Origin: Alphaproteobacteria bacterium
GTDB taxonomy: Bacteria; Pseudomonadota; Alphaproteobacteria; Rhodobacterales; Rhodobacteraceae
Assembly (NCBI GenBank): GCA_030429495.1
Contig: JAUIFH010000002.1
Span: 62,001-126,000 of the forward strand
Direction of reading: 5' to 3'
DNA: 64,000 bases
Shown here: piece after piece, positions 14,870 to 28,028 of the stretch
Numbering within the stretch: the stretch's first letter is position 1
Layout of the letters: every line of letters begins with the position of its first letter
Position numbers and translations under genes: made by a program
The notes under the pieces: model-generated
What the model was told of the DNA's origin: nothing
The model's database searches: none
What the model saw: the letters and a program-made list of their open reading frames with translations, nothing else

Positions 14870-15718
14870 ATGGACAAGCTCTCGCGTCAGACGGAAACTG
14901 GATCGGAGCGCGCCGCGCGCTATGGCACGCTTTCCCTGTTCTGGATCTTCGCCCTCGTTTCGATCTATCCGATGATCTGGCTGACGCTCTCATCGTTTAA
15001 GTCCTCGTCGGAGATGTTCGGGAACAGCTGGGCACTGCCGCAGCGATGGCGATGGGAGAACTACGTTGCCGCGTGGGACTACGGCGTATCGCAATACCTG
15101 ATCTCGAGCGTTATCGTCACCGTCGCTTCGACCGCGATTATCGTGATCCTGGCTTCTGCAGCAGCCTATGCACTCGTCGCGTTGAAGCTTCGGGGCCGGG
15201 CATTTCTCTACATGGCCATCTTGGGCGGATCGATCCTGCCGCCGGAAGTGAGCCTTCTGCCGCTCTTCCGCACTGTGACTGCGCTTGGCATCTACAACAC
15301 CTATTGGGCGCTGATCGTGCCCTACGTCGCCTTCGGCCTGCCGTTTACGACCTTCCTGATCCGCGCCTACATGGTGAAGATACCTCTGGAACTGGCTGAG
15401 GCGGCAGAAATGGATGGGGCGGGGCCGTTCTGGACGTTCTGGAACGTGTATCTGCCGCTTTCGCGACCGATCCTTGCTTCGGCAGCGCTGATTTCGGCCA
15501 TGAGGGTGTGGAACGAGTTCATCTTTGCCCTAACGTTCGTCGAAAGCGAGAGCGTGAAGACGATTACCATCGGAATGATGAGCTTCGCCAATGCGCTCAG
15601 GGGCGACTGGGCGGTGATGATGGCCGGGATGGTGATTTCGGTCTTGCCGATCTTTGTTGTCTTCCTTGTCCTGCAGCGGCAGTTCATCGGGGGGCTCACC
15701 CAAGGTGCGGTGAAGTGA
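14870..15718 (+). CDS. ABC sugar transporter permease (MalG-like)
   Basis: The 282-residue protein has six predicted transmembrane segments and an EAA loop (ELAEAAEMDGAGPFWTFWNV region, about residues 175-195). Length and order match CUT1 permease 2. The ATG at 14870 is 3 bp after the upstream stop; an in-frame GTG at 14867 is a possible alternative. It forms the membrane channel with the 13985-14866 product. Confidence 0.92.
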   Translation: MDKLSRQTETGSERAARYGTLSLFWIFALVSIYPMIWLTLSSFKSSSEMFGNSWALPQRWRWENYVAAWDYGVSQYLISSVIVTVASTAIIVILASAAAYALVALKLRGRAFLYMAILGGSILPPEVSLLPLFRTVTALGIYNTYWALIVPYVAFGLPFTTFLIRAYMVKIPLELAEAAEMDGAGPFWTFWNVYLPLSRPILASAALISAMRVWNEFIFALTFVESESVKTITIGMMSFANALRGDWAVMMAGMVISVLPIFVVFLVLQRQFIGGLTQGAVK

Positions 15719-15734
15719 TGAATGGAGGCACGGG

Positions 15735-16784
15735 ATGAGTGAACTCAGGCTGCAGAGGGCAACCAAGCGCTTCGGCAATCTGACCGTCATCGAAAAGTTG
15801 GACCTTGAGGTCCACGACAGGGAGTTCGTCGTTCTGGTCGGTCCTTCCGGCTGCGGGAAATCTACGCTCTTGCGCATGATTGCCGGGCTGGAGGACATCA
15901 CCGATGGCGATCTCATCATCGACGGCCAGCGCATGAACGAGATCCCGGCCGCGCGTCGCGGTCTCGCAATGGTGTTCCAGTCCTACGCGCTCTATCCGCA
16001 TATGACGGTTGCACAGAACATGTCGGTGGGACTGCGTATCGCGGGCGAAAACAAGGCGACTATCCAAAACAAGGTAGCGGAAGCTGCGCGCATCCTGCAG
16101 CTCGAGCCGATGCTTGATCGCAAACCCAAGGCGCTCTCCGGCGGCCAGCGGCAGCGTGTTGCGATTGGCCGTGCAATCGTGCGTAATCCGCGGATATTTC
16201 TCTTCGACGAGCCCTTGTCGAACCTGGACGCCGCGCTGCGGCTTCAGATGCGCCTCGAACTCTCGAAGCTTCACGATGAACTCGCCGCGACGATGATCTA
16301 CGTAACCCACGACCAGGTGGAGGCGATGACGCTCGCCGACCGCATCGTGGTCATGAATGCCGGGAGGATCGAACAGATTGGCACGCCGGAGGAGCTCTAC
16401 CAAAGGCCGGCGAACCTTTTCGTGGCGGGGTTTATTGGCAGCCCGAAGATGAACCTTGTCGAGGCGCACTCGGACGGGAATGTTATCGATTCCGCCATAG
16501 GCCGATACCCAATTCGGGTTGCCGAAGGTCCGGTGACGCTCGGCGTGCGCCCCGAGGTAATACGGATTGGCTGCCAAGATTGCTCAACGACGCATTCCGG
16601 GCATGTGCAGGTCGTGGAGCGGCTAGGCGCAAACAGCTTCGCATATTTGGACGTCGGGGATCGCACGTTGCTGACAGTCGAACTGCCGGGAATGACCTCG
16701 ATCAAGGCTGGGGAAGACCTCCAAATCTCGATTCCGGCGGACAAAGTTCTGGTCTTCGGGGGCAACGGAGAGAGACTCCGCTAA
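15735..16784 (+). CDS. ABC sugar transporter ATP-binding protein (UgpC/MsmX-like)
   Basis: The 349-residue ATPase contains Walker A GPSGCGKSTLLRM (about 36-48), a Q-loop (VFQSYALYPHM), signature SGGQRQRV, Walker B IFLFDEPLSNLD and an H-loop (YVTHDQVEAM). A C-terminal TOBE/MalK-type domain begins near residue 240 and contains VTLGVRPEVIR. The gene starts 16 bp after the second permease, with GGAGGCACGGG before it, and closes the operon. It powers uptake through the MalF/MalG-like pair. Confidence 0.95.
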   Translation: MSELRLQRATKRFGNLTVIEKLDLEVHDREFVVLVGPSGCGKSTLLRMIAGLEDITDGDLIIDGQRMNEIPAARRGLAMVFQSYALYPHMTVAQNMSVGLRIAGENKATIQNKVAEAARILQLEPMLDRKPKALSGGQRQRVAIGRAIVRNPRIFLFDEPLSNLDAALRLQMRLELSKLHDELAATMIYVTHDQVEAMTLADRIVVMNAGRIEQIGTPEELYQRPANLFVAGFIGSPKMNLVEAHSDGNVIDSAIGRYPIRVAEGPVTLGVRPEVIRIGCQDCSTTHSGHVQVVERLGANSFAYLDVGDRTLLTVELPGMTSIKAGEDLQISIPADKVLVFGGNGERLR

Positions 16785-19834: not shown

Positions 19835-21162
19835 TTCGTGCCGGGCGTGCCGTCGAACTTCTTTTCGAGTGAGGTCCAGCAGTCGATGTAGTCGTCCTGA
19901 AGCGGCGCCTCCTTCGCGGCGAATTCGGTGAGGTGCTGGGGAAACCGCGTCTCGAACATGAAGGACATAGTGTTGTCGAGTTTCTCTGCCTTCAGCTCTG
20001 CGTTCGAGGCGCCTTCGAACGCCTGCCGGTCGGGGCCGTGGGGCAGCATCATGTTGTGAAGCGACATTCCGCCGGGGACGAAGCCCTGAGGCTTCGCGTC
20101 GTACTGGCCGTAGATGTTGCCCATGAGTTCCGACATGATGTTCTTGTGATACCAGGGCGGGCGGAACGTGTTCTCCGCCACCATCCAGCGTTCACGGAAC
20201 AGCACGAAGTCGATATTTGCTGTGCCCGGAACGCCGGAGGGCGCCGTCAGAACGGTGAAGATCGACGGGTCGGGATGATCAAACAGGATAGCGCCGACCG
20301 GGCAGTAGGTGCGCAGGTCGTATTTGCACGGCGCGTAATTGCCATGCCAAGCGACGACATCGAGCGGGCTGTGGCCGATCTTGCAGAAATGGAACTGGCC
20401 GCACCACTTGATCGTGACGGTCGAGGCCGCCTCGCGGTCCTCATAGGCCGCGACCGGGGTCTTGAAATCGCGCCGGTTGGCCATGCAGTTCGCGCCGATG
20501 GGGCCACGGCCCGGCAGTTCGAACTTCTGGCCGTAGTTCTCGCAGACGAAGCCGCGGGCCGGGCCTTCGATCAATTCCACGCGATAGAGAAGCCCGCGCG
20601 GAAGGATGGCGATTTCCTGCGGGCCGAGGTCGATCACCCCGAGTTCCGTCGCGAAGCGCAGACGTCCCTCCTGCGGGACAACAAGGAGTTCGCTGTCGGC
20701 GGAGTAGAAATAGTCATCCACCATCGAGCCGGTGACGAGATAGATGTGGGACGCCATGCCCACCTGCGTGTTCACGTCGCCCGCCGTCGTCATGGTGCGC
20801 ATCCCCGTTAGCCAGGTAAGCGTATCGCCTGAATGCGGCACGGGGTCCCAGCGGTACTGACCGAGCGAGATCACGTCGCCGACGACGTTGGGAGCGGTCT
20901 TCCAATAGGGCAGGTCGATCTTCTCGTAGCGGCTGGAATGCTTGACCGACGGGCGGATGCGATAGCACCAGGTTCGTTCATTCTGATGCGAGGGCGCGGT
21001 GAAGGCCGTGCCGGAAAGCTGTTCGCCATAAAGCCCGTAGTTGCATTTCTGTGGCGAATTCATGCCCTGTGGCAAGGCGCCTGGCAGAGCTTCCGTCTCG
21101 AAGTCGTTGCCAAAGCCCGGCATGTAGCCTTCATGCGGCCGCGAGTTCGCTTCTGGTTTCAT
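19831..21162 (-). CDS. hmgA: Homogentisate 1,2-dioxygenase
   Basis: The 443-residue non-haem iron dioxygenase opens the ring of homogentisate to maleylacetoacetate. It starts [20 protein letters not shown] at 21162 behind GGGAGGAGATAA; longer in-frame extensions lack a ribosome site. Family motifs include [11 protein letters not shown], the cupin core, and iron ligands near [13 protein letters not shown] and [14 protein letters not shown]. It is the first gene of the hmgA-maiA-fahA operon. Transcription probably starts in the 21163-21338 region shared with the MarR gene. Confidence 0.97.
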
Positions 21163-21226
21163 CGCGGTTATCTCCTCCCTCGATTTTCCGGGGCATGCCG
21201 GACTGCCGATCGCCGCCGCAATTGTG

Positions 21227-21268
21227 GTTTCAAATGAAACTTTGTCAACCGAAGATTTCAAAGGAAAC
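21227..21268. promoter_or_regulatory. Twin operator of the hmg operon
   Basis: GTTTCAAATGAAAC (21227-21240) is an inverted repeat, and ATTTCAAAGGAAAC (21255-21268) is a near copy 28 bp further on. Both lie in the divergent hmgA-marR intergenic region, as expected for a MarR dimer binding two sites that control both promoters. Confidence 0.72.
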
Positions 21269-21338
21269 TACTTTTCAGGCCGGGAATGGGTGGATAATCT
21301 GGTGCCGGTACGAACGGGACCCGGGAAGTTCAGGCAAA

Positions 21339-21857
21339 ATGGAACGGAATGCTGAGACCAAGGACGAAACCCCCCGGGGTGGCGCAAGCGCCCCGAACCC
21401 GGACTTTCTGCTACAGCAGTTCTTTCCCTACCTCGCGCGGGTCTTCTACACCCGCATTAGCAACGCGGTATCGCTGATCTACGAAGAACGCTTCGGCATG
21501 AAGCGCTATGAGTGGCGAACGATGGCCATTCTCGGCCAGTGCCCCGCCCTCACCGCGAGCGAGATCGTGGCCGCGTCGAGCATGGACAAGGTATCCGTAA
21601 GCCGGGCGATCGCGTCCCTGCGGCGTCGCGGCTGGATTATCGAGAGAACGAACAAGAACGATGCGCGTAGCCGCGTTCTGAAGCTTTCGCGCGCCGGCAG
21701 GGATGTCTACGAAACGCTCGTACCAGAGATGGTCGGTCTGGAATGCAAATTGCTGGCCGACCTGAGCGGCGCAGAGGTTGCCACCCTGAAGTCGCTCATG
21801 GCCCGCGTCGCCGGCACGGCCGAGTCGCTTGATACCGGTCGCGCCGCGGAAGCGTAA
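21339..21857 (+). CDS. MarR-family regulator, probable HmgR
   Basis: The 172-residue protein has the MarR winged helix (about 60-130): YEWRTMAILGQCPALTASEIVAASSMDKVSVSRAIASLRRRGWI in outline, with the wing at TNKNDARSRVLKLS. The start at 21339 is the first ATG with the MarR N-terminal helix in frame. Divergent placement beside hmgA and the twin operator indicate that it represses the homogentisate genes and is released by a pathway intermediate. That effector is inferred from known HmgR proteins. Confidence 0.85.
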   Translation: MERNAETKDETPRGGASAPNPDFLLQQFFPYLARVFYTRISNAVSLIYEERFGMKRYEWRTMAILGQCPALTASEIVAASSMDKVSVSRAIASLRRRGWIIERTNKNDARSRVLKLSRAGRDVYETLVPEMVGLECKLLADLSGAEVATLKSLMARVAGTAESLDTGRAAEA

Positions 21858-21917: not shown

Positions 21918-23468
21918 TCACGCCCCGCGTGCCGTCGATCTCGGAACCCCTGCCTGCGCCACAAGCTCATCCGGACCGGAAGGCTGGCCCACGGCCTCTG
22001 CCGCGTCGCGCTGTTTCGGCATCACCAGGACCAAACCTGAGACCAGACATGCAAGCGCCGCCCAGACCCAGAGGGTCATCTGTTCGTTGAGCAGAACGAC
22101 ACTCCAAAGGATGCCGCCCGCTGTCATGGCATAGCCCGCTTGGCTGGCGAAGACTGCGCCGGTGGAACGGATCGTATAGACCAGAAGGACTGTTGCGAAC
22201 GCACTTAGCGCGGCGATCAGAAGAAATGCCCAACCATAGCCAGCCAATGCTTCGTCAACCGATATGAACGACCCGGTCGCCAGCGTCACGGGTGTCAGGA
22301 TTGCGGCAGCAGCGATGGTGATGCCAGTTGCTGCGCCGAGGATGTCGACATCGCCTTCGGGCAGCGCGGCGATGACGATGTCCTCGACCGCATAACAAAA
22401 CGGCACCGCCAGGGTCACGAGTATCCAGACCCAGTTGTCCACACCTGTGCCTTCGCTACCGGGCACCATGATAAGGACGACGCAGCCAAGCCCGAGGCTC
22501 AGACCCAGGAAACGCTTGAGACTCGGCGCTTCGAGGCCCATTGAGGCGGCGAGGACGAAGACAATGAAGGATTCCGCGGCAAGAATGATCGCGATGATCA
22601 TGGCTGGAACGCTGGCCGCGACCCAGAACAGAAACAACTGCGGCAGCACGCCGCCAACAAGGCCAAGTATCAGGTACCGCCTCACCTCTGCAGCACTTGT
22701 GCCAGGATAACGTCCCGTCAGGATCGACGCGGCGATCATCAGAACGGCGCTGAGGCCGAGCGTCCAGAAGGCAACGCCAAGAGGATGCAATCCCTCGACC
22801 ATGATGATCCGCGACAGCGACGGAATAAGCCCCCATGTCGCACCGAGCAACATCAGGAGCATACCGCCCTTGAGTAGGCTGATCTGCAATCTGAGGTTCT
22901 GTTCGCGTCGATAGACCTCGCCCGCCATCTGCAGGAACACGCGGGCGAGGTTGCCCAACCGGTCATCCCGGGCGGCTATGTCCTCAAGACCAAGGCCGGC
23001 GGGATCGAACGCCTTGCCCTCGACGATACCCGATGCTGCGGCCAGACGGTCAACCTGGTGCAAGTACTCCAGTTCCTTGTCACGTAGCCATTTGCGCTCC
23101 AGGCCAGCCCCCACACGCGCCTTCAGAAGTACCGGGCTGAAGGGCTTGGTCAGAAAGTCATCAGCGCCAAGTTCGATTGCGCGAACCGCGTCTTCGGCTT
23201 CTTCCAGCGATGAAATGACGATGACCGGAATGTCACGCAGTGCAGGGTCTGCCTTGATCTCCGCCAACACCTGGAACCCGTCCATTTCTGGCATCATGAT
23301 ATCGAGGAGTACGATGTCGAATCGCTCACGCCGCAGCGCCTCAAGGCACTCCTTTCCGCCCACGGCCGACTCGACCTCGTGACCGAGGTTCTGCACGGCA
23401 AGCGCCAGTTTCATCCGGTTCGTCTTGTGGTCGTCGACCACAAGGGCGCGCCCCTGTTGTGTCCCCAT
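21918..23468 (-). CDS. Receiver domain fused to an EamA (DMT) transporter
   Basis: A 516-residue protein joins two domains that are seldom linked. Residues 7-125 form a response-regulator receiver: acidic D12 and D13, phospho-acceptor D56 (LLDIMMPEMDG) and K108 (LTKPFSP). A linker of about 70 residues leads to roughly ten hydrophobic segments (about 195-490) with the two EamA repeats of drug/metabolite transporters (for example LLMLLGATWGLIPSLSR and WSVVLLNEQMTLWVW). The start at 23468 lies 17 bp after the stop of the hybrid kinase gene, giving tight coupling. Phosphorylation would probably gate or localise transport directly. The substrate is unknown. The fused frame has no stop or shift, so the fusion appears genuine. 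Confidence 0.88.
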   Translation of the reverse strand: MGTQQGRALVVDDHKTNRMKLALAVQNLGHEVESAVGGKECLEALRRERFDIVLLDIMMPEMDGFQVLAEIKADPALRDIPVIVISSLEEAEDAVRAIELGADDFLTKPFSPVLLKARVGAGLERKWLRDKELEYLHQVDRLAAASGIVEGKAFDPAGLGLEDIAARDDRLGNLARVFLQMAGEVYRREQNLRLQISLLKGGMLLMLLGATWGLIPSLSRIIMVEGLHPLGVAFWTLGLSAVLMIAASILTGRYPGTSAAEVRRYLILGLVGGVLPQLFLFWVAASVPAMIIAIILAAESFIVFVLAASMGLEAPSLKRFLGLSLGLGCVVLIMVPGSEGTGVDNWVWILVTLAVPFCYAVEDIVIAALPEGDVDILGAATGITIAAAAILTPVTLATGSFISVDEALAGYGWAFLLIAALSAFATVLLVYTIRSTGAVFASQAGYAMTAGGILWSVVLLNEQMTLWVWAALACLVSGLVLVMPKQRDAAEAVGQPSGPDELVAQAGVPRSTARGA

Positions 23469-23485
23469 CGTTTTCGGCTTCCCCC

Positions 23486-26400
23486 TCAGGCACCTATCAT
23501 TTGGCGCAGGCTCTTTTGCGCCTCGCCATAAACGACTGCCGCGCGTCCAGACATAGTTGCCGCGCCACTGATATTTCCGTTGCGGCCCATGGCTTCCAGT
23601 TCCCGGCACAGCCGCGAAAGCTCCATGGCGCCGAAATCCGCAGCACTTGATTTCATCGTATGTGCCGCGTGCCGAAGGCCCGTGGCATCGCCGACCTTCA
23701 CGGCGGTTTCGATGCGGGCGATAAGGTCCGGCCCCTCCTCCAGAAAGCTTTCGACCAGTTCCCGCAGTGCTTCGCGGTCGCCTCCAATAGTATCGAGCAA
23801 TGTGTCGAGTGCAGCCGGGTCGAACACCGCCATCGGTTTCTGATTGTCCATTTTGGTCGTCCCCTTTGACTTTCCGCCACAACAGGATTGCAGCGTTTCG
23901 ACCAGCGCCTCGACACGGATCGGCTTGCTGACATAGCCACTCATACCCGCCGCGATGAATTTTTCCCGATCGCCGTCCATCGCGTTTGCTGTCACGGCAA
24001 TGATCTTCGGGCGTTTGTCCTCGGGATAGTCCGCAATGATGCGGCGCGTAGCCTCCATCCCATCCATCTCGGGCATTTCGATATCCATGAGGACGACATC
24101 ATAGGGCTGGCGGGCCACGGCCTCGATCACCTCAAGGCCATTGCCCGCGATATCTGAGGTGTAGCCTAGACGCTTCAGTATCATACGGCCAAGCTTCTGG
24201 TTTGTGGCGTGGTCATCGGCCAGGAGAATGCGCAACGGCAGTCTACTGGCCAGCGATTCATCGTATGCAGGCTTCTTGCGCTGGACCCGGTCGATGACGC
24301 GGATCGGCCTGCCTGCGAATAGGCTGACAAGCGTGTTCAGAAGCGGCGACGGTTTGACCGGCTTGGCAAGAACTTCGACGAAATCGGCTTTTGCAAGCTC
24401 CTCGGGACTGTGATCCATCGACTGGCCAAGCGACGAGAGAAGGACCAGCGGCAGATTCTTGCCCGCTGCGGTGCCGCGCAGTTTCTGCGCCAGATCAACA
24501 CCGTCCATTCCGGGCATGTGCATGTCCAGGATCGCCACATCGAAGCGCTCGCCACCAGCCACCTGCCGAAACGCTGCATCCGGCTCTTCCACGCTTACCG
24601 GCTCCATTGCCCAGCTTGCCGTCTGTCGCGACAGCAGCATTCGGTTCGTTGCATTGTCGTCGACGATCAGCACCCGCTTGCCTTCCAGGTCGGGGCGGGC
24701 CTCGTTCAGATCGACTGCGCCGATCGTTTCCCCCACCGGAGCGGAAAGCGTGAAGTGGAACGTGGTGCCCTCGCCCGGCGCGCTTACGACCCAGATCCGG
24801 CCGCCCATGAGATCGACAAGCCGCTGGCTGATCGCGAGGCCAAGCCCGGTTCCTCCGTATCGCCGCGTCGTGGTCGCATCGACCTGGCTGAACGACTGAA
24901 ACAGCCGGTCGAGCCTGTCGGCAGGAATGCCAATCCCGGTGTCGCGCACGGTGAAAAGAAGCCGGCATTGACCATCGGTTTCGCTCGACGCTTCGGGCGA
25001 AACCGTCAACACGACCTCGCCCTTCTCGGTAAACTTGATCGCGTTGTTGATCAGGTTAAGAAGAACCTGACGTAGTCGCGTGACGTCCGAAACGATGGTC
25101 TCTGGCACGCCCGGCTCTATGTAATAGGCCAGATCGAGTCCCTTGCGCGCCGCCGCCATCGCCACGAGGTCCAGCGCACTTTCGACGCAGTCGCGCAGAT
25201 TGAACAACTGCCTTTCCAGTTCCAGCTTGCCCGCCTCGACCTTGGAATAATCGAGGATATCGTTGATCACCGTCAGCAAGCTTTCCGCGCTTTCGTTTAT
25301 CGTCCGCGCAAAATCCATCTGTTCGGGCGAAAGATCAGTGTCCATCAAAAGGTTGCTCATCCCGATGACGCCGTTCATCGGTGTGCGGATCTCATGGCTC
25401 ATGTTGGCGAGGAACTGGCTCTTTGCCGTGGTCGCCCGCAAGGCTACGTCGCGCGCTTCGGCCAGGCTTTCGACCAGTTCCTGCAGTTGAACCTCGCGCG
25501 CCTTGGATTCGGTGATATCGGTGAAGACGCCGACGATCCCGCCCGCGTCAGTCGGTCGTTCGCTGATCTTCATCCAGCTACCGTCGCGGCGTTTCTGTTC
25601 GAAGGGACTTTCGGGATTGCGGTGTTGGGCGATGCGCCGCTCCTGCCAGTCCGGCCCTGCATCCTCGACAATGCCTGATCCCGCTACATGTTCGGTGATC
25701 TCTGCAAAGCGGCAGCCGGGTGCGATGTCGAAACCGATCCGGGAATACATCTGCCGGTAACGTTCGTTGCAGATCACCAGGCGGTCTTCCGCGTCGAAAA
25801 GCGCAAAACCTTCGCTGATCGCCTCGATCGCCTCGGTCAGCTGCACCTGCATCCGCTTGACCTCGCGGTCCGCGGCTTCCTGCGCGGCCGCGAGTTTTTC
25901 ACGCTCGGCCAGGCTGTCGCGGAAAAGGCCAAGCGTCCGGGTCATTGCGCCAACCTCGTCATGGCCGGGTTTCGGCAGGCTGGCAGCAAGGTTGCCATCG
26001 GTAATTTCTTTCATCGCCACCAGCAACCGTCGAAGCGGCGACGTGATCGACCCGACGACAAGCAATGTCAGCAACAGTCCGACCAGCCCGGCGACGATGA
26101 CAGTCCAGTTCGATAATCGGACCGCACGCTCGGCCTCGGTAAGGGCGGCATCGCTCTTTACCTTGGCCTCGGTTTCCAGTTCGGCTACCAGCGCGCCGAG
26201 CTCCGCATCGACCCGGCGGATGTGTTCCTGCCCCTTGGCGACCAGCGAATTGCCGAGAACGCGCTGATCTTCAGTGTAGGCATCGACCGCGAGGAATGCC
26301 TGTTCCAGAAGTCCCCCGACCTGCTGTCGAATGACCGCGACGCGATCGGCCGCGACCGGGACCAACGCCTCGAGCTCTGCCTCAAGCGCCTCGCGTGCGG

Positions 26401-26647
26401 CAAGCGCGTTCTGCTCCGAGCGCATCAGCAGACTGACGGAGAGGTCCGACAGCCAGTACTTCAATTCACCGAAATGGGTGCTCGCAGCATTGGCGTGGGC
26501 AAGGATGCCAATCGCGGCCGCCCCCTCTGAGATCGCCTCGGCATTGCGTGACAGTCGCGCGGACAGGAAGGCGTTGGTGGCAACCAGAAACGCCAGCAGC
26601 ACCGCCGAGAGGAAAACCAGGCGCCCGAGGATCGAGAATCTAGCCAT
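23486..26647 (-). CDS. Hybrid sensor histidine kinase with two receivers and an Hpt domain
   Basis: The 1053-residue kinase has, in order: a transmembrane helix (about 8-30); a periplasmic helical region (30-180); a second helix (180-202); HAMP (202-255); PAS (270-390, with AIEAISEGFALFDAEDRL); HisKA with FLANMSHEIRTPMNG; HATPase with NLINNAIKF, RDTGIGIP and GGTGLGLAIS; receiver 1 (VLIVDDNATNR, AILDMHMPGMDG); receiver 2 (LLADDHATNQ, VLMDIEMPEMDGM); and a C-terminal Hpt with RHAAHTMKSSA. This is an ArcB/BarA-like phosphorelay that needs an external receiver. The downstream receiver-EamA protein is the obvious partner. A haem-binding sensor gene lies 65 bp upstream. Confidence 0.95.
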   Translation of the reverse strand: MARFSILGRLVFLSAVLLAFLVATNAFLSARLSRNAEAISEGAAAIGILAHANAASTHFGELKYWLSDLSVSLLMRSEQNALAAREALEAELEALVPVAADRVAVIRQQVGGLLEQAFLAVDAYTEDQRVLGNSLVAKGQEHIRRVDAELGALVAELETEAKVKSDAALTEAERAVRLSNWTVIVAGLVGLLLTLLVVGSITSPLRRLLVAMKEITDGNLAASLPKPGHDEVGAMTRTLGLFRDSLAEREKLAAAQEAADREVKRMQVQLTEAIEAISEGFALFDAEDRLVICNERYRQMYSRIGFDIAPGCRFAEITEHVAGSGIVEDAGPDWQERRIAQHRNPESPFEQKRRDGSWMKISERPTDAGGIVGVFTDITESKAREVQLQELVESLAEARDVALRATTAKSQFLANMSHEIRTPMNGVIGMSNLLMDTDLSPEQMDFARTINESAESLLTVINDILDYSKVEAGKLELERQLFNLRDCVESALDLVAMAAARKGLDLAYYIEPGVPETIVSDVTRLRQVLLNLINNAIKFTEKGEVVLTVSPEASSETDGQCRLLFTVRDTGIGIPADRLDRLFQSFSQVDATTTRRYGGTGLGLAISQRLVDLMGGRIWVVSAPGEGTTFHFTLSAPVGETIGAVDLNEARPDLEGKRVLIVDDNATNRMLLSRQTASWAMEPVSVEEPDAAFRQVAGGERFDVAILDMHMPGMDGVDLAQKLRGTAAGKNLPLVLLSSLGQSMDHSPEELAKADFVEVLAKPVKPSPLLNTLVSLFAGRPIRVIDRVQRKKPAYDESLASRLPLRILLADDHATNQKLGRMILKRLGYTSDIAGNGLEVIEAVARQPYDVVLMDIEMPEMDGMEATRRIIADYPEDKRPKIIAVTANAMDGDREKFIAAGMSGYVSKPIRVEALVETLQSCCGGKSKGTTKMDNQKPMAVFDPAALDTLLDTIGGDREALRELVESFLEEGPDLIARIETAVKVGDATGLRHAAHTMKSSAADFGAMELSRLCRELEAMGRNGNISGAATMSGRAAVVYGEAQKSLRQMIGA

Positions 26648-26712
26648 ACCGCATCCTTTCGGCCGGGTCAGAACATGGCAAAGCCTTGCCGCCCTGACAG
26701 GACCGCCGCATC

Positions 26713-27483
26713 TCAGCGAAACAGGCTGATACTGATGACGCCGCCCAGATCGCCGAGTTTGCCGCCTTCCTTCGGATAGCCGGTAACGTCGATTTCACCC
26801 TGCGGTTCGCCGTGGCAGGCGAGGCACCCTTCGCCGTAGTATTCGGGCACCAATACCCGGTAGGCGGCCCGGGCATCATGTTCGGCTTCGGCGGCAAAAA
26901 CCTGGCCGTTCGGCCAGTCAGCAGCAGCAAGATTGCTGCGGATGATCTCGGTTTCCCAATCGTCCGGTCGCGCCTTGCGGTTGCGGATCAACTCCGGTGG
27001 CGCTGTCACCTTGATGACCGCCTCGTCCCCGACGAGTTCGGAAAACCGCTCGTTGACCAGTCGCCCGAATACTGCGGGGACGAAACCTTTGAAACCTACG
27101 CCGTCCTGATTGATCGTTGCCTGATTGGTTTCCATCACCTCCCGGATGGCCGTGATCTGGGCCGAAAGCAGCCGCGCCTCGCGCGCGTCCTGACCTTCAA
27201 AAAGCGGCGCGGTGCCGTTTGCCGCCAGAAAAGTCTCGGAAGCCAATCTCAGGACGTGATCACCGTTCAATCCCTTGTCACCCCCCGCTGGATCATTGAT
27301 CAGATCCTGGCTTGCAGCGATGACTGTCCGGGCGGATCTGAGCAGCGATGCCAGCTTAAGTGCCGTCTCCATATCCTGGTCCGCGCTACTCTGAGCACTG
27401 GCAATTCCCAAAGGAACGGCCAGCCCGCCGACCGAGATCGCGATTGCAATGACTCCGAGAAATCGAATTGTTTGTTCGCGCAT
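26713..27483 (-). CDS. Periplasmic Tll0287-like (DUF3365) c-type haem sensor
   Basis: The 256-residue protein has a signal peptide (FLGVIAIAISVGGLAVP, cleavage near 30) and a Tll0287-like/DUF3365 domain with a single c-type haem site, C220-L-A-C223-H224, near the C-terminus. The fold binds haem in the periplasm and is proposed to sense redox or gas ligands; some are fused directly to kinases. Here it is a separate gene in front of the hybrid kinase. It ends LGDLGGVISISLFR, typical of the family. The ATG at 27483 has GAGGGGACT before it. A longer in-frame start lacks a signal peptide. Confidence 0.85.
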   Translation of the reverse strand: MREQTIRFLGVIAIAISVGGLAVPLGIASAQSSADQDMETALKLASLLRSARTVIAASQDLINDPAGGDKGLNGDHVLRLASETFLAANGTAPLFEGQDAREARLLSAQITAIREVMETNQATINQDGVGFKGFVPAVFGRLVNERFSELVGDEAVIKVTAPPELIRNRKARPDDWETEIIRSNLAAADWPNGQVFAAEAEHDARAAYRVLVPEYYGEGCLACHGEPQGEIDVTGYPKEGGKLGDLGGVISISLFR

Positions 27484-27938: not shown

Positions 27939-28028
27939 TGGCGGAGTGGAAGGGATTCGAACCCTCGAGACGGTTTCCCGTCTGCACCCTTAGCAGGGGT
28001 GTGCCTTCGACCACTCGGCCACCACTCC
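27939..28028 (-). tRNA. tRNA-Ser (GCT)
   Basis: Ninety bases, with a long variable arm, encoded CCA and anticodon GCT in the loop CTGCTAA. The acceptor stem GGAGTGG pairs with CCACTCC. The T-arm carries GGTTCGAATCC. The tRNA is complete. Confidence 0.97.

Follow-up and report, generated by a model that had tools for sequence, protein, structure and literature searches.

The known outputs of response regulators in two-component systems are DNA-binding, enzymatic, or protein-binding. Whether a phosphorelay may also end directly in a membrane transporter is the question raised by a locus in a 64,000-nucleotide stretch of a Rhodobacteraceae genome (contig JAUIFH010000002.1, positions 62,001 to 126,000; this whole stretch is referred to as the window). 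Three intact genes lie in a row on the minus strand at positions 21918 to 27483, as judged from the open reading frames (ORFs), in agreement with an earlier sequence-only reading that had described three genes read together; the letters of the entire window contain no N. They encode a c-type haem protein (P0003), a hybrid histidine kinase (P0002), and a protein in which a receiver domain is joined to an EamA carrier (P0001). The ATG of the carrier gene (23468) is located 17 nucleotides past the kinase stop codon, the gap comprising positions 23469 to 23485 as had been noted before, and 65 nucleotides separate the stop codon of the haem protein gene from the kinase ATG. The comparative evidence presented below supports the proposal of the sequence-only reading that a phosphorelay may switch transport directly: the locus likely encodes a self-contained sensory phosphorelay ending in a membrane carrier that would be gated by phosphorylation. 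Observed are the genes of the locus with their catalytic residues intact, the conserved association with kinase and Hpt, a HAMP-like linker, and a complete carrier fold. The features of the locus are as follows (TM, transmembrane).

21918..23468, minus strand: receiver-HAMP-like-EamA fusion protein P0001, 516 residues, putative terminal response regulator and carrier (Pfam; AlphaFold2 model, predicted local distance difference test [pLDDT] 88.4; conserved family)
23094..23468, minus strand: receiver domain, residues 1 to 125, with D12, D13, D56, S86, and K108 (Pfam, alignment)
23301..23303, minus strand: codon of the phospho-acceptor D56 (Asp in all 44 aligned rows)
22869..23093, minus strand: HAMP-like linker, residues 126 to 200, consisting of helix, connector, and a helix leading into TM1 (hhalign, AlphaFold2 model)
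22011..22868, minus strand: EamA/drug-metabolite transporter (DMT) domain, residues 201 to 486, ten TM helices in two repeats (Pfam, model, Foldseek)
23486..26647, minus strand: hybrid histidine kinase P0002, 1053 residues, with the order TM-like segment, periplasmic loop of about residues 34 to 174, TM-like segment, HAMP, PAS_7, HisKA, HATPase_c, REC, REC, Hpt (Pfam, two TM-like segments)
25229..25426, minus strand: HisKA domain of the kinase with the motif SHEIRTP (sequence, Pfam)
23891..24229, minus strand: second receiver of the kinase, residues 807 to 919 (Pfam)
23561..23761, minus strand: Hpt domain of the kinase with the motif HTMKS, presumed phosphodonor to D56 (sequence, Pfam; the donor role is deduced)
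26713..27483, minus strand: c-haem Tll0287-like (sCache_heme) protein P0003, 256 residues, presumed periplasmic sensor subunit of the kinase (Pfam, alignment, position)
26812..26826, minus strand: CLACH motif for haem c attachment, C220 to H224 (CxxCH in 9 of 9 aligned rows)

Distribution of the receiver-carrier fusion

To define the occurrence of the fusion, residues 121 to 516 of P0001 were used as the query against 61 genomes, i.e., the genome containing the window and 60 relatives. An orthologous fused ORF was found in 5 of the 21 other genomes of the same genus, with 74 to 87% identity, and two further genomes of the genus (G001 and G016) contain divergent fusions. Together with fusions on three Mesorhizobium plasmids, these show 36 to 42% identity over nearly the full length, the plasmid copies having 41 to 42% over 99% of the length. 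Two plasmid matches, H4, which is a receiver-cyclase protein according to Pfam, and H5, as well as receiver-only matches in the window's own genome were set aside. Matches on viral contigs (six loci, 31 to 38% identity) covered the receiver alone or included part of the linker as well.

A genome-wide scan was performed with a linker-EamA profile lacking the receiver, and the best 80 of 441 relatives were kept. In 46 of these 80 loci, there are a total of 50 receiver-linker-EamA ORFs, the other 34 loci having stand-alone carriers; this split belongs to the best 80 of the 441, and the size of the family is accordingly a minimum estimate. The hosts of the fusion are mostly Rhodobacteraceae and their kin as well as Rhizobiales (Mesorhizobium, Rhizobium, Devosia, Roseibium, Aestuariivirga), plus a metagenome-assembled genome (MAG) of the Geminicoccaceae; they include a cultured strain, Roseovarius halotolerans CECT 8110 (L061), which possesses both the fusion and the haem protein gene. 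In a MAG labelled Rhodothermales (L081), the fusion groups in the tree with copies of Roseibium, Limimaricola, and Defluviimonas, which may be due to erroneous binning or to a recent transfer. Profile searches at wider taxonomic scope gave matches in 9 of 394 genomes of the family (the window's own included; in one of them, G379, receiver and linker only), in 5 of 385 genomes of the class (the fusion in the own genome, the carrier only in the other four), and in 3 of 398 genomes of the phylum (the own genome included, all three in the same family); as the three or four top candidates per genome were scored, misses in these searches are soft. The distribution of the receiver-carrier family is patchy.

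In the phylogenetic tree, fused carriers (51 rows) and stand-alone carriers (35 rows) are split by a single branch with a support of 100/100. The tree is unrooted and gave long-branch warnings; the split would fit one fusion event without proving it. That the fusion is a chance event or an assembly artefact has a negligible probability: it recurs in genomes of the same genus and across the best 80 loci, amounting to 50 fusion ORFs in 46 loci, with an intact phospho-Asp in all 44 aligned rows. The artefact was accordingly rejected, and the frame error between receiver and carrier that the sequence-only reading had considered was not found. One locus (L094) contains, besides two intact copies, a third copy split into a receiver-linker and a linker-EamA ORF (14904 to 16012), which is probably decaying.

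Linkage of the fusion to hybrid kinases and Hpt domains

The genomic context of the fusion was assessed in 44 of the 46 fusion loci, L060 and L074 being left out for want of 5′ sequence at a contig end; these counts refer to loci, several of which are near copies and not independent events. A histidine kinase is encoded in all 44, either by a gene of its own in the locus or as part of the fusion ORF, and is of the hybrid type in 43; an Hpt domain is present in 43 as well. Stand-alone carriers show a different picture, with a kinase in only 1 of 34 loci (L107), although these control loci are somewhat shorter (median length 14195 versus 17083 bases). In eight other genomes from the search of the family, a kinase is located nearby in 8 and an Hpt domain in 7 cases; four of the eight are new to the set. 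Where Hpt is encoded by a gene of its own, this gene often borders on the fusion ORF or overlaps it. The motif SHEIRTP was found in 43 of 45 HisKA/HATPase ORFs (loci L056 to L099), the exceptions being a fragment in L099 and the second, separate kinase of L067, and 40 of 44 Hpt ORFs contain the H-x-x-K motif. In Gemmobacter straminiformis (L088, 7605 to 11666), receiver, linker, EamA, PAS, PAS, HisKA, HATPase, REC, and REC form one ORF of 1353 residues. An Hpt gene comes next, and the same contig contains another fusion (L090) at a different place.

Pfam identified HAMP, PAS_7, HisKA, HATPase_c, two Response_reg stretches, and Hpt in P0002, consistent with its previous description as a 1053-residue hybrid kinase, and the HisKA, HATPase, REC, and Hpt domains carry their catalytic motifs, as expected of a hybrid-kinase phosphorelay. 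Clusters of neighbouring genes present in at least 3 of 48 loci comprised the fusion, the kinase, Hpt, periplasmic proteins of three types, and three additional families; no recurrent gene among the neighbour clusters of the 48 loci names a substrate of the carrier. The three-gene unit initially proposed for the window is thereby modified: kinase, Hpt, and receiver-carrier are the shared core, whereas no more than 6 of the 46 fusion loci encode the Tll0287-like protein, all of them in the clade nearest to the window. Two receiver-carriers are located beside one kinase in L085 (9163 to 10677) and L086 (9151 to 10686), where they are convergent, and in L087 (4009 to 7175), where they are in tandem; in these loci, one relay may drive two carriers.

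Receiver, linker, and carrier domains

In P0001, Pfam detected Response_reg at residues 9 to 119 (E 2.4e-29) and two EamA stretches (E 4.7e-19). For conservation analysis, 43 of the 50 fusion ORFs and the window protein were aligned (alignment A3, 44 rows); not included were L060 (at a contig edge), L069 (beginning inside the receiver), and L059, L073, L078, L082, and L098 (close relatives of kept rows). D56 and K108 are present in all 44 rows, D12 and D13 in 43, the exception being L074 at a contig start, and position 86 is serine in 43 rows and threonine in one. The receiver had been called complete on the basis of D12, D13, D56, and K108; these residues are indeed present and S86 provides the Ser/Thr position, so that acidic pair, phospho-Asp, Ser/Thr, Lys, and the receiver fold are all found, as in two-component receivers. 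The solved receiver nearest in sequence is that of PleD, which is also among the structural matches, and a Rhizobium receiver-cyclase (by Pfam) shares 53% identity with residues 9 to 140 of the window protein.

The previous description of a receiver joined to an EamA transporter requires a correction, since a 75-residue HAMP-like hairpin lies between the two. Stretches matching this hairpin occur in a PP2C phosphatase of Azospirillum and a Cache protein of Pseudanabaena, and both are HAMP according to Pfam. With eight kinase HAMP domains, hhalign returned a probability of 26% (E 7e-4) in the same register, compared to 0.2% for a helical control. In the AlphaFold2 model of the fusion protein (pLDDT 88.4), the last receiver helix runs to residue 150 and is followed by two short helices, and the helix formed by residues 170 to 223 continues unbroken from the latter half of the linker through TM1. 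Mean pairwise identity among the aligned proteins is 0.57 for the receiver, 0.49 for the linker, and 0.39 for the carrier.

The carrier part possesses the two EamA repeats, ten TM helices, and fold of DMT carriers. Foldseek aligned it with LicB (7paf; TMt 0.81 over 287 columns) and with a triose-phosphate translocator (5y78; TMt 0.74 over 310 columns); a sequence-profile search of the PDB with linker and carrier gave no matches. Residues G209, E313, R319, G322, and G326 are invariant in the 44 fusion proteins, and in 35 plain carriers E313 is retained in 32 and each of the other four residues in all 35. The loci of the genome-wide scan had to match a carrier motif at about residues 437 to 446 or 453 to 462, where conservation is therefore partly built in; the five residues fall outside both motifs. 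The conserved core residues argue for a working carrier.

The presumed sensor slot beside the kinase

A gene for a periplasmic protein adjoins the kinase gene in 29 of 44 fusion loci, the partner being SBP_bac_3-like in 15, DctP in 7, Tll0287 in 6, and SBP_bac_5 in 1. The first two counts were obtained from sequence clusters (16 SBP3 and 9 TRAP loci of 48), which were cut to the kinase-adjoining cases by reading the layouts; cluster members far from the kinase in L061, L070, and L071 were not counted as partners. Of the 15 SBP_bac_3-like proteins, 8 were assigned by clustering and 7 were also analysed with Pfam, with a match to SBP_bac_3 in L065 and L096 and none in L075, L081, L083, L085, and L126; for DctP, a Pfam result is available for 3 of 7 (L084, L091, L102). 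In L089 and L096, the partner gene is adjacent to the kinase gene but encoded on the other strand; in L065 and L066, it is situated between kinase and Hpt.

The kinases differ according to the presence of a partner. By a hydropathy rule, at least two TM-like segments were recognized in 28 of the 29 kinases with a partner, and one in the remaining case (L084). The 15 loci lacking a partner comprise 11 from Rhizobiales together with L088, L090, L093 (kinase at a contig end), and L099; the 11 Rhizobiales kinases have no TM-like segment, and all 7 of them that were scanned with Pfam contain multiple GAF domains (L063, L064, L067, L071, L072, L076, L079). Among kinases with a partner, those of L102 and L069 gave TorS_sensor matches exceeding the curated Pfam cut-off, those of L084 and L092 gave matches below this value, and the kinase of the window gave no such match; TorS itself receives its stimulus from TorT, a periplasmic protein (PMC6321045). 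As the partner slot elsewhere holds solute-binding proteins, the Tll0287-like protein of the window sits in the place of a ligand-binding subunit, and it probably fills the slot of a sensor subunit. The suggestion that this protein is the real input to the kinase thus obtains positional support from other clades, in which the gene adjoining the kinase encodes a solute-binding protein.

The haem protein and its possible signal

P0003, which has a signal-like N terminus as judged by eye, belongs to the Tll0287-like family as originally assigned (PF11845; E 3.5e-17, 63.6 bits versus a cut-off of 24.1) and contains the CLACH motif. Orthologs of the haem protein and of the receiver-carrier have the same presence or absence in 22 of 22 genomes of the genus: 6 genomes, including that of the window, have both and 16 have neither, so that the lack of co-occurrence considered in the sequence-only reading does not apply. 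Among the 16 are G001 and G016, whose divergent receiver-carriers occur without Tll0287. In another alphaproteobacterial family (genome G043; L158, 3079 to 4471), a Tll0287 relative with 45% identity precedes the start of a membrane protein at a contig end; this start shows a modest similarity to the N terminus of the window kinase (27%, E 7e-6 in one pairwise test), and Pfam detected no families in it.

A recent preprint describes the Tll0287 family as c-haem proteins of the Cache fold, including a signalling-type member from P. azotoformans that lacks an axial Cys and binds nitric oxide (NO) tightly, and a stand-alone member from P. putida with Cys/His ligation and redox-like properties (PMC12889525). 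The only cysteines of the window protein are C220 and C223 of the CLACH motif, which makes the axial Cys ligand of the canonical stand-alone Tll0287 proteins impossible; in this respect the protein resembles the NO-binding type. The signal may therefore be NO or another small ligand, or else a redox state, a gas ligand being slightly favoured. The initial designation as a redox operon thus stands as one option only, with an NO-like gas ligand at least as likely. A sequence-profile search of the PDB with the haem protein gave no matches, and Foldseek with its model gave none at E ≤ 0.001, the top hits being WalK-YycH (0.01), DcuS (0.048), and GSU0935 (0.077).

Genes surrounding the locus

A tRNA-Ser (GCT) is located upstream of the operon at window positions 27939 to 28028 on the minus strand. 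On the other side, a plus-strand ORF at 21051 to 21857 converges on the carrier gene; its later part presumably encodes a MarR-family regulator, and we take the minus-strand ORFs beyond it to encode a homogentisate dioxygenase and a fumarylacetoacetase, in each case from the translations. A scan for promoters and terminators gave 1 promoter-like site (1.4 in shuffled sequences) and 11 terminator-like sites (6.3 in shuffled sequences, standard deviation 2.5) and was not used.

Proposed mechanism and alternative explanations

In the proposed mechanism, a periplasmic subunit, which is the c-type haem sCache protein here and an SBP_bac_3-like, DctP, or SBP_bac_5 protein elsewhere, would bind a ligand and then influence the hybrid kinase through its periplasmic loop. 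From the His of HisKA, a phosphoryl group would travel to the Asp of a kinase receiver, to the His of a fused or separate Hpt domain, and finally to Asp56 of the carrier receiver. Phosphorylated receivers would change their packing, and this movement would reach the EamA carrier via the HAMP-like hairpin, the second helix of which extends without interruption into TM1; the carrier would open, close, or change its rate. Up to Hpt, the steps are those known from the chemistry of other hybrid kinases; the gene linkage suggests that D56 is the next acceptor, and for gating the pointer is the architecture. We infer the phosphotransfer, the coupling, the identity of the ligand (haem ligand, redox, or NO), the substrate, and the direction of transport, DMT carriers comprising both exporters and importers. 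The more general view, that Alphaproteobacteria possess a family of phosphorelay-gated carriers with interchangeable periplasmic sensors, in which a HAMP-like module would operate in reverse, i.e., from a cytosolic receiver to the membrane, appears plausible on balance.

Several observations weigh against phosphorelay control of the carrier. In L099, the kinase is present as two fragments on the other strand and Hpt is lacking; in G379, a receiver-linker ORF of 245 residues ends before the carrier; in G313, the beginning of the receiver is missing from the fusion ORF and no Hpt was found in the neighbourhood; and in L069 (Jannaschia), the ORF starts inside the receiver, so that the acidic pair is not read, and a separate 120-residue REC protein adjoins. 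The L090 kinase is transmembrane by hydropathy, and its layout includes no gene for a periplasmic partner. Further response regulators are encoded in some loci, such as a REC-adenylate/guanylate cyclase (L089, 5941 to 6999) and a REC-GNAT acetyltransferase (L090, 13066 to 14019), meaning that the carrier need not be the sole output. As to the coupling, the linker matched HAMP stretches of PP2C and Cache proteins with an hhalign probability of 99%, but these stretches had been found by BLAST with the linker itself and the comparison is not blind; against the Pfam HAMP model the linker gave no families at E up to 10, which is why it is called HAMP-like only. Finally, the monomeric AlphaFold2 model is silent on gating, and L088 has the carrier preceding PAS and histidine kinase domains in the usual place of a sensor, the direction of signalling not being fixed by the sequence.

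It is this L088 arrangement, with the carrier N-terminal to PAS-PAS-kinase, that keeps open the main rival explanation, in which the carrier is the input: it would sense flux or substrate, its receiver would drain phosphoryl groups from Hpt or feed them to it, and the real output of the kinase would lie elsewhere. Known transporter-kinase fusions, namely the SLC5/STAC proteins CbrA and CrbS (PMC9100948), and the other response regulators in some loci would fit such a role. We nevertheless regard it as improbable, given that in the other fusion loci the receiver-carrier is separate and has no transmitter, that the receiver is complete in 43 of 44 rows, that no other type of response regulator recurs among the clusters present in at least 3 of 48 loci, and that an input to the kinase, periplasmic or via GAF, already exists. 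A role of the receiver-carrier as phosphate sink or membrane anchor, in which the receiver would serve only as a buffer of the relay or to position the kinase while the carrier works unregulated, seems to us more remote still. Sink receivers are known in multi-receiver systems; however, for a sink or anchor the HAMP-like module and the helix leading into TM1 would be superfluous, the linker is more conserved than the carrier, and the core residues of the carrier are retained.

A further alternative concerns the haem protein and is compatible with control of the transporter: P0003 might be a bystander redox protein, the kinase sensing via its own helical loop. Redox-related roles have been assigned to stand-alone sCache_heme proteins (PMC12889525), and this alternative deserves consideration, even though we deem it unlikely in view of the matching presence and absence of haem protein and carrier orthologs in 22 of 22 genomes of the genus, the solute-binding proteins in the same slot elsewhere, and the absence of cysteines outside CxxCH, which distinguishes the window protein from the Cys/His-ligated redox type. 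A weaker argument is that the 45% relative in G043 precedes a membrane-protein start modestly resembling the N terminus of the window kinase.

Relation to known systems

LacS of streptococci and lactobacilli carries a fused EIIA-Glc-like domain whose phosphorylation changes transport, and a 2023 review names it as the sole bacterial transporter under direct phosphorylation (PMC10710835). The main text of this review contains no occurrence of "two-component," "response regulator," "receiver domain," or "histidine kinase"; the transporter-borne domains that it names are CBS, cyclic-nucleotide, PAS, and UspA domains (PMC10710835). As in the window protein, a phospho-acceptor domain is fused to a secondary carrier in LacS (PMC10710835), but there it is a IIA-like domain of the phosphotransferase system (PTS) phosphorylated by HPr, whereas the window protein combines an Asp receiver, a HAMP-like linker, and a DMT carrier with a linked sensor kinase. 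Pfam detected no EIIA-Glc-like domain in P0001, which is thus not a PTS-regulated carrier of the LacS type, and with EamA as the carrier and no kinase domain it is not an SLC5/STAC sensor kinase either. The latter likewise join a transporter domain to two-component proteins (PMC9100948), yet with the transporter on the kinase, whereas here the carrier is on the terminal receiver (L088 holds both). Membrane kinases with a periplasmic binding protein beside them that stimulates the kinase are known from TorT-TorS, LuxP-LuxQ, and XylFII-LytS (PMC6321045); the locus of the window differs in having a carrier as the output and a haem protein, rather than a bilobal binding protein, as the partner.

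For the individual domains, the nearest receivers are those of REC-enzyme regulators (PleD and REC-adenylate cyclases), which have a cyclase where P0001 has a membrane carrier. The carrier shares the ten-helix DMT fold with EamA/DMT carriers such as the choline importer LicB and the triose-phosphate translocator, from which it differs by the additional N-terminal receiver and HAMP-like linker. The haem protein shares Pfam family and CXXCH motif with the DUF3365/Tll0287 sCache_heme proteins (PMC12889525); unlike these, it is stand-alone yet genetically paired with a kinase and lacks the canonical axial Cys. The parts all come from known families, P0001 being classed as a response regulator and, according to its sequence and fold, as a DMT carrier; the receiver-carrier looks like a new class of response-regulator output. 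No description of a receiver-carrier, or of His-Asp control of a transporter, was found in the open-access literature searched, in accordance with the sequence-only reading, which knew of no system of this form.

Implications

If the proposed mechanism is true, the locus would represent, as far as the open-access literature searched shows, the first His-Asp phosphorylation control of a transporter. With a carrier as the output, transport could change soon after a periplasmic signal, without a transcription step. The fusion family offers at least 46 natural examples for testing phosphorylation control of transporters, and the varied periplasmic partners on a conserved core, i.e., the haem protein and the SBP_bac_3-like, DctP, and SBP_bac_5 proteins, would amount to a natural sensor-exchange experiment. 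Stand-alone haem-Cache proteins, in turn, gain a candidate role as kinase subunits.

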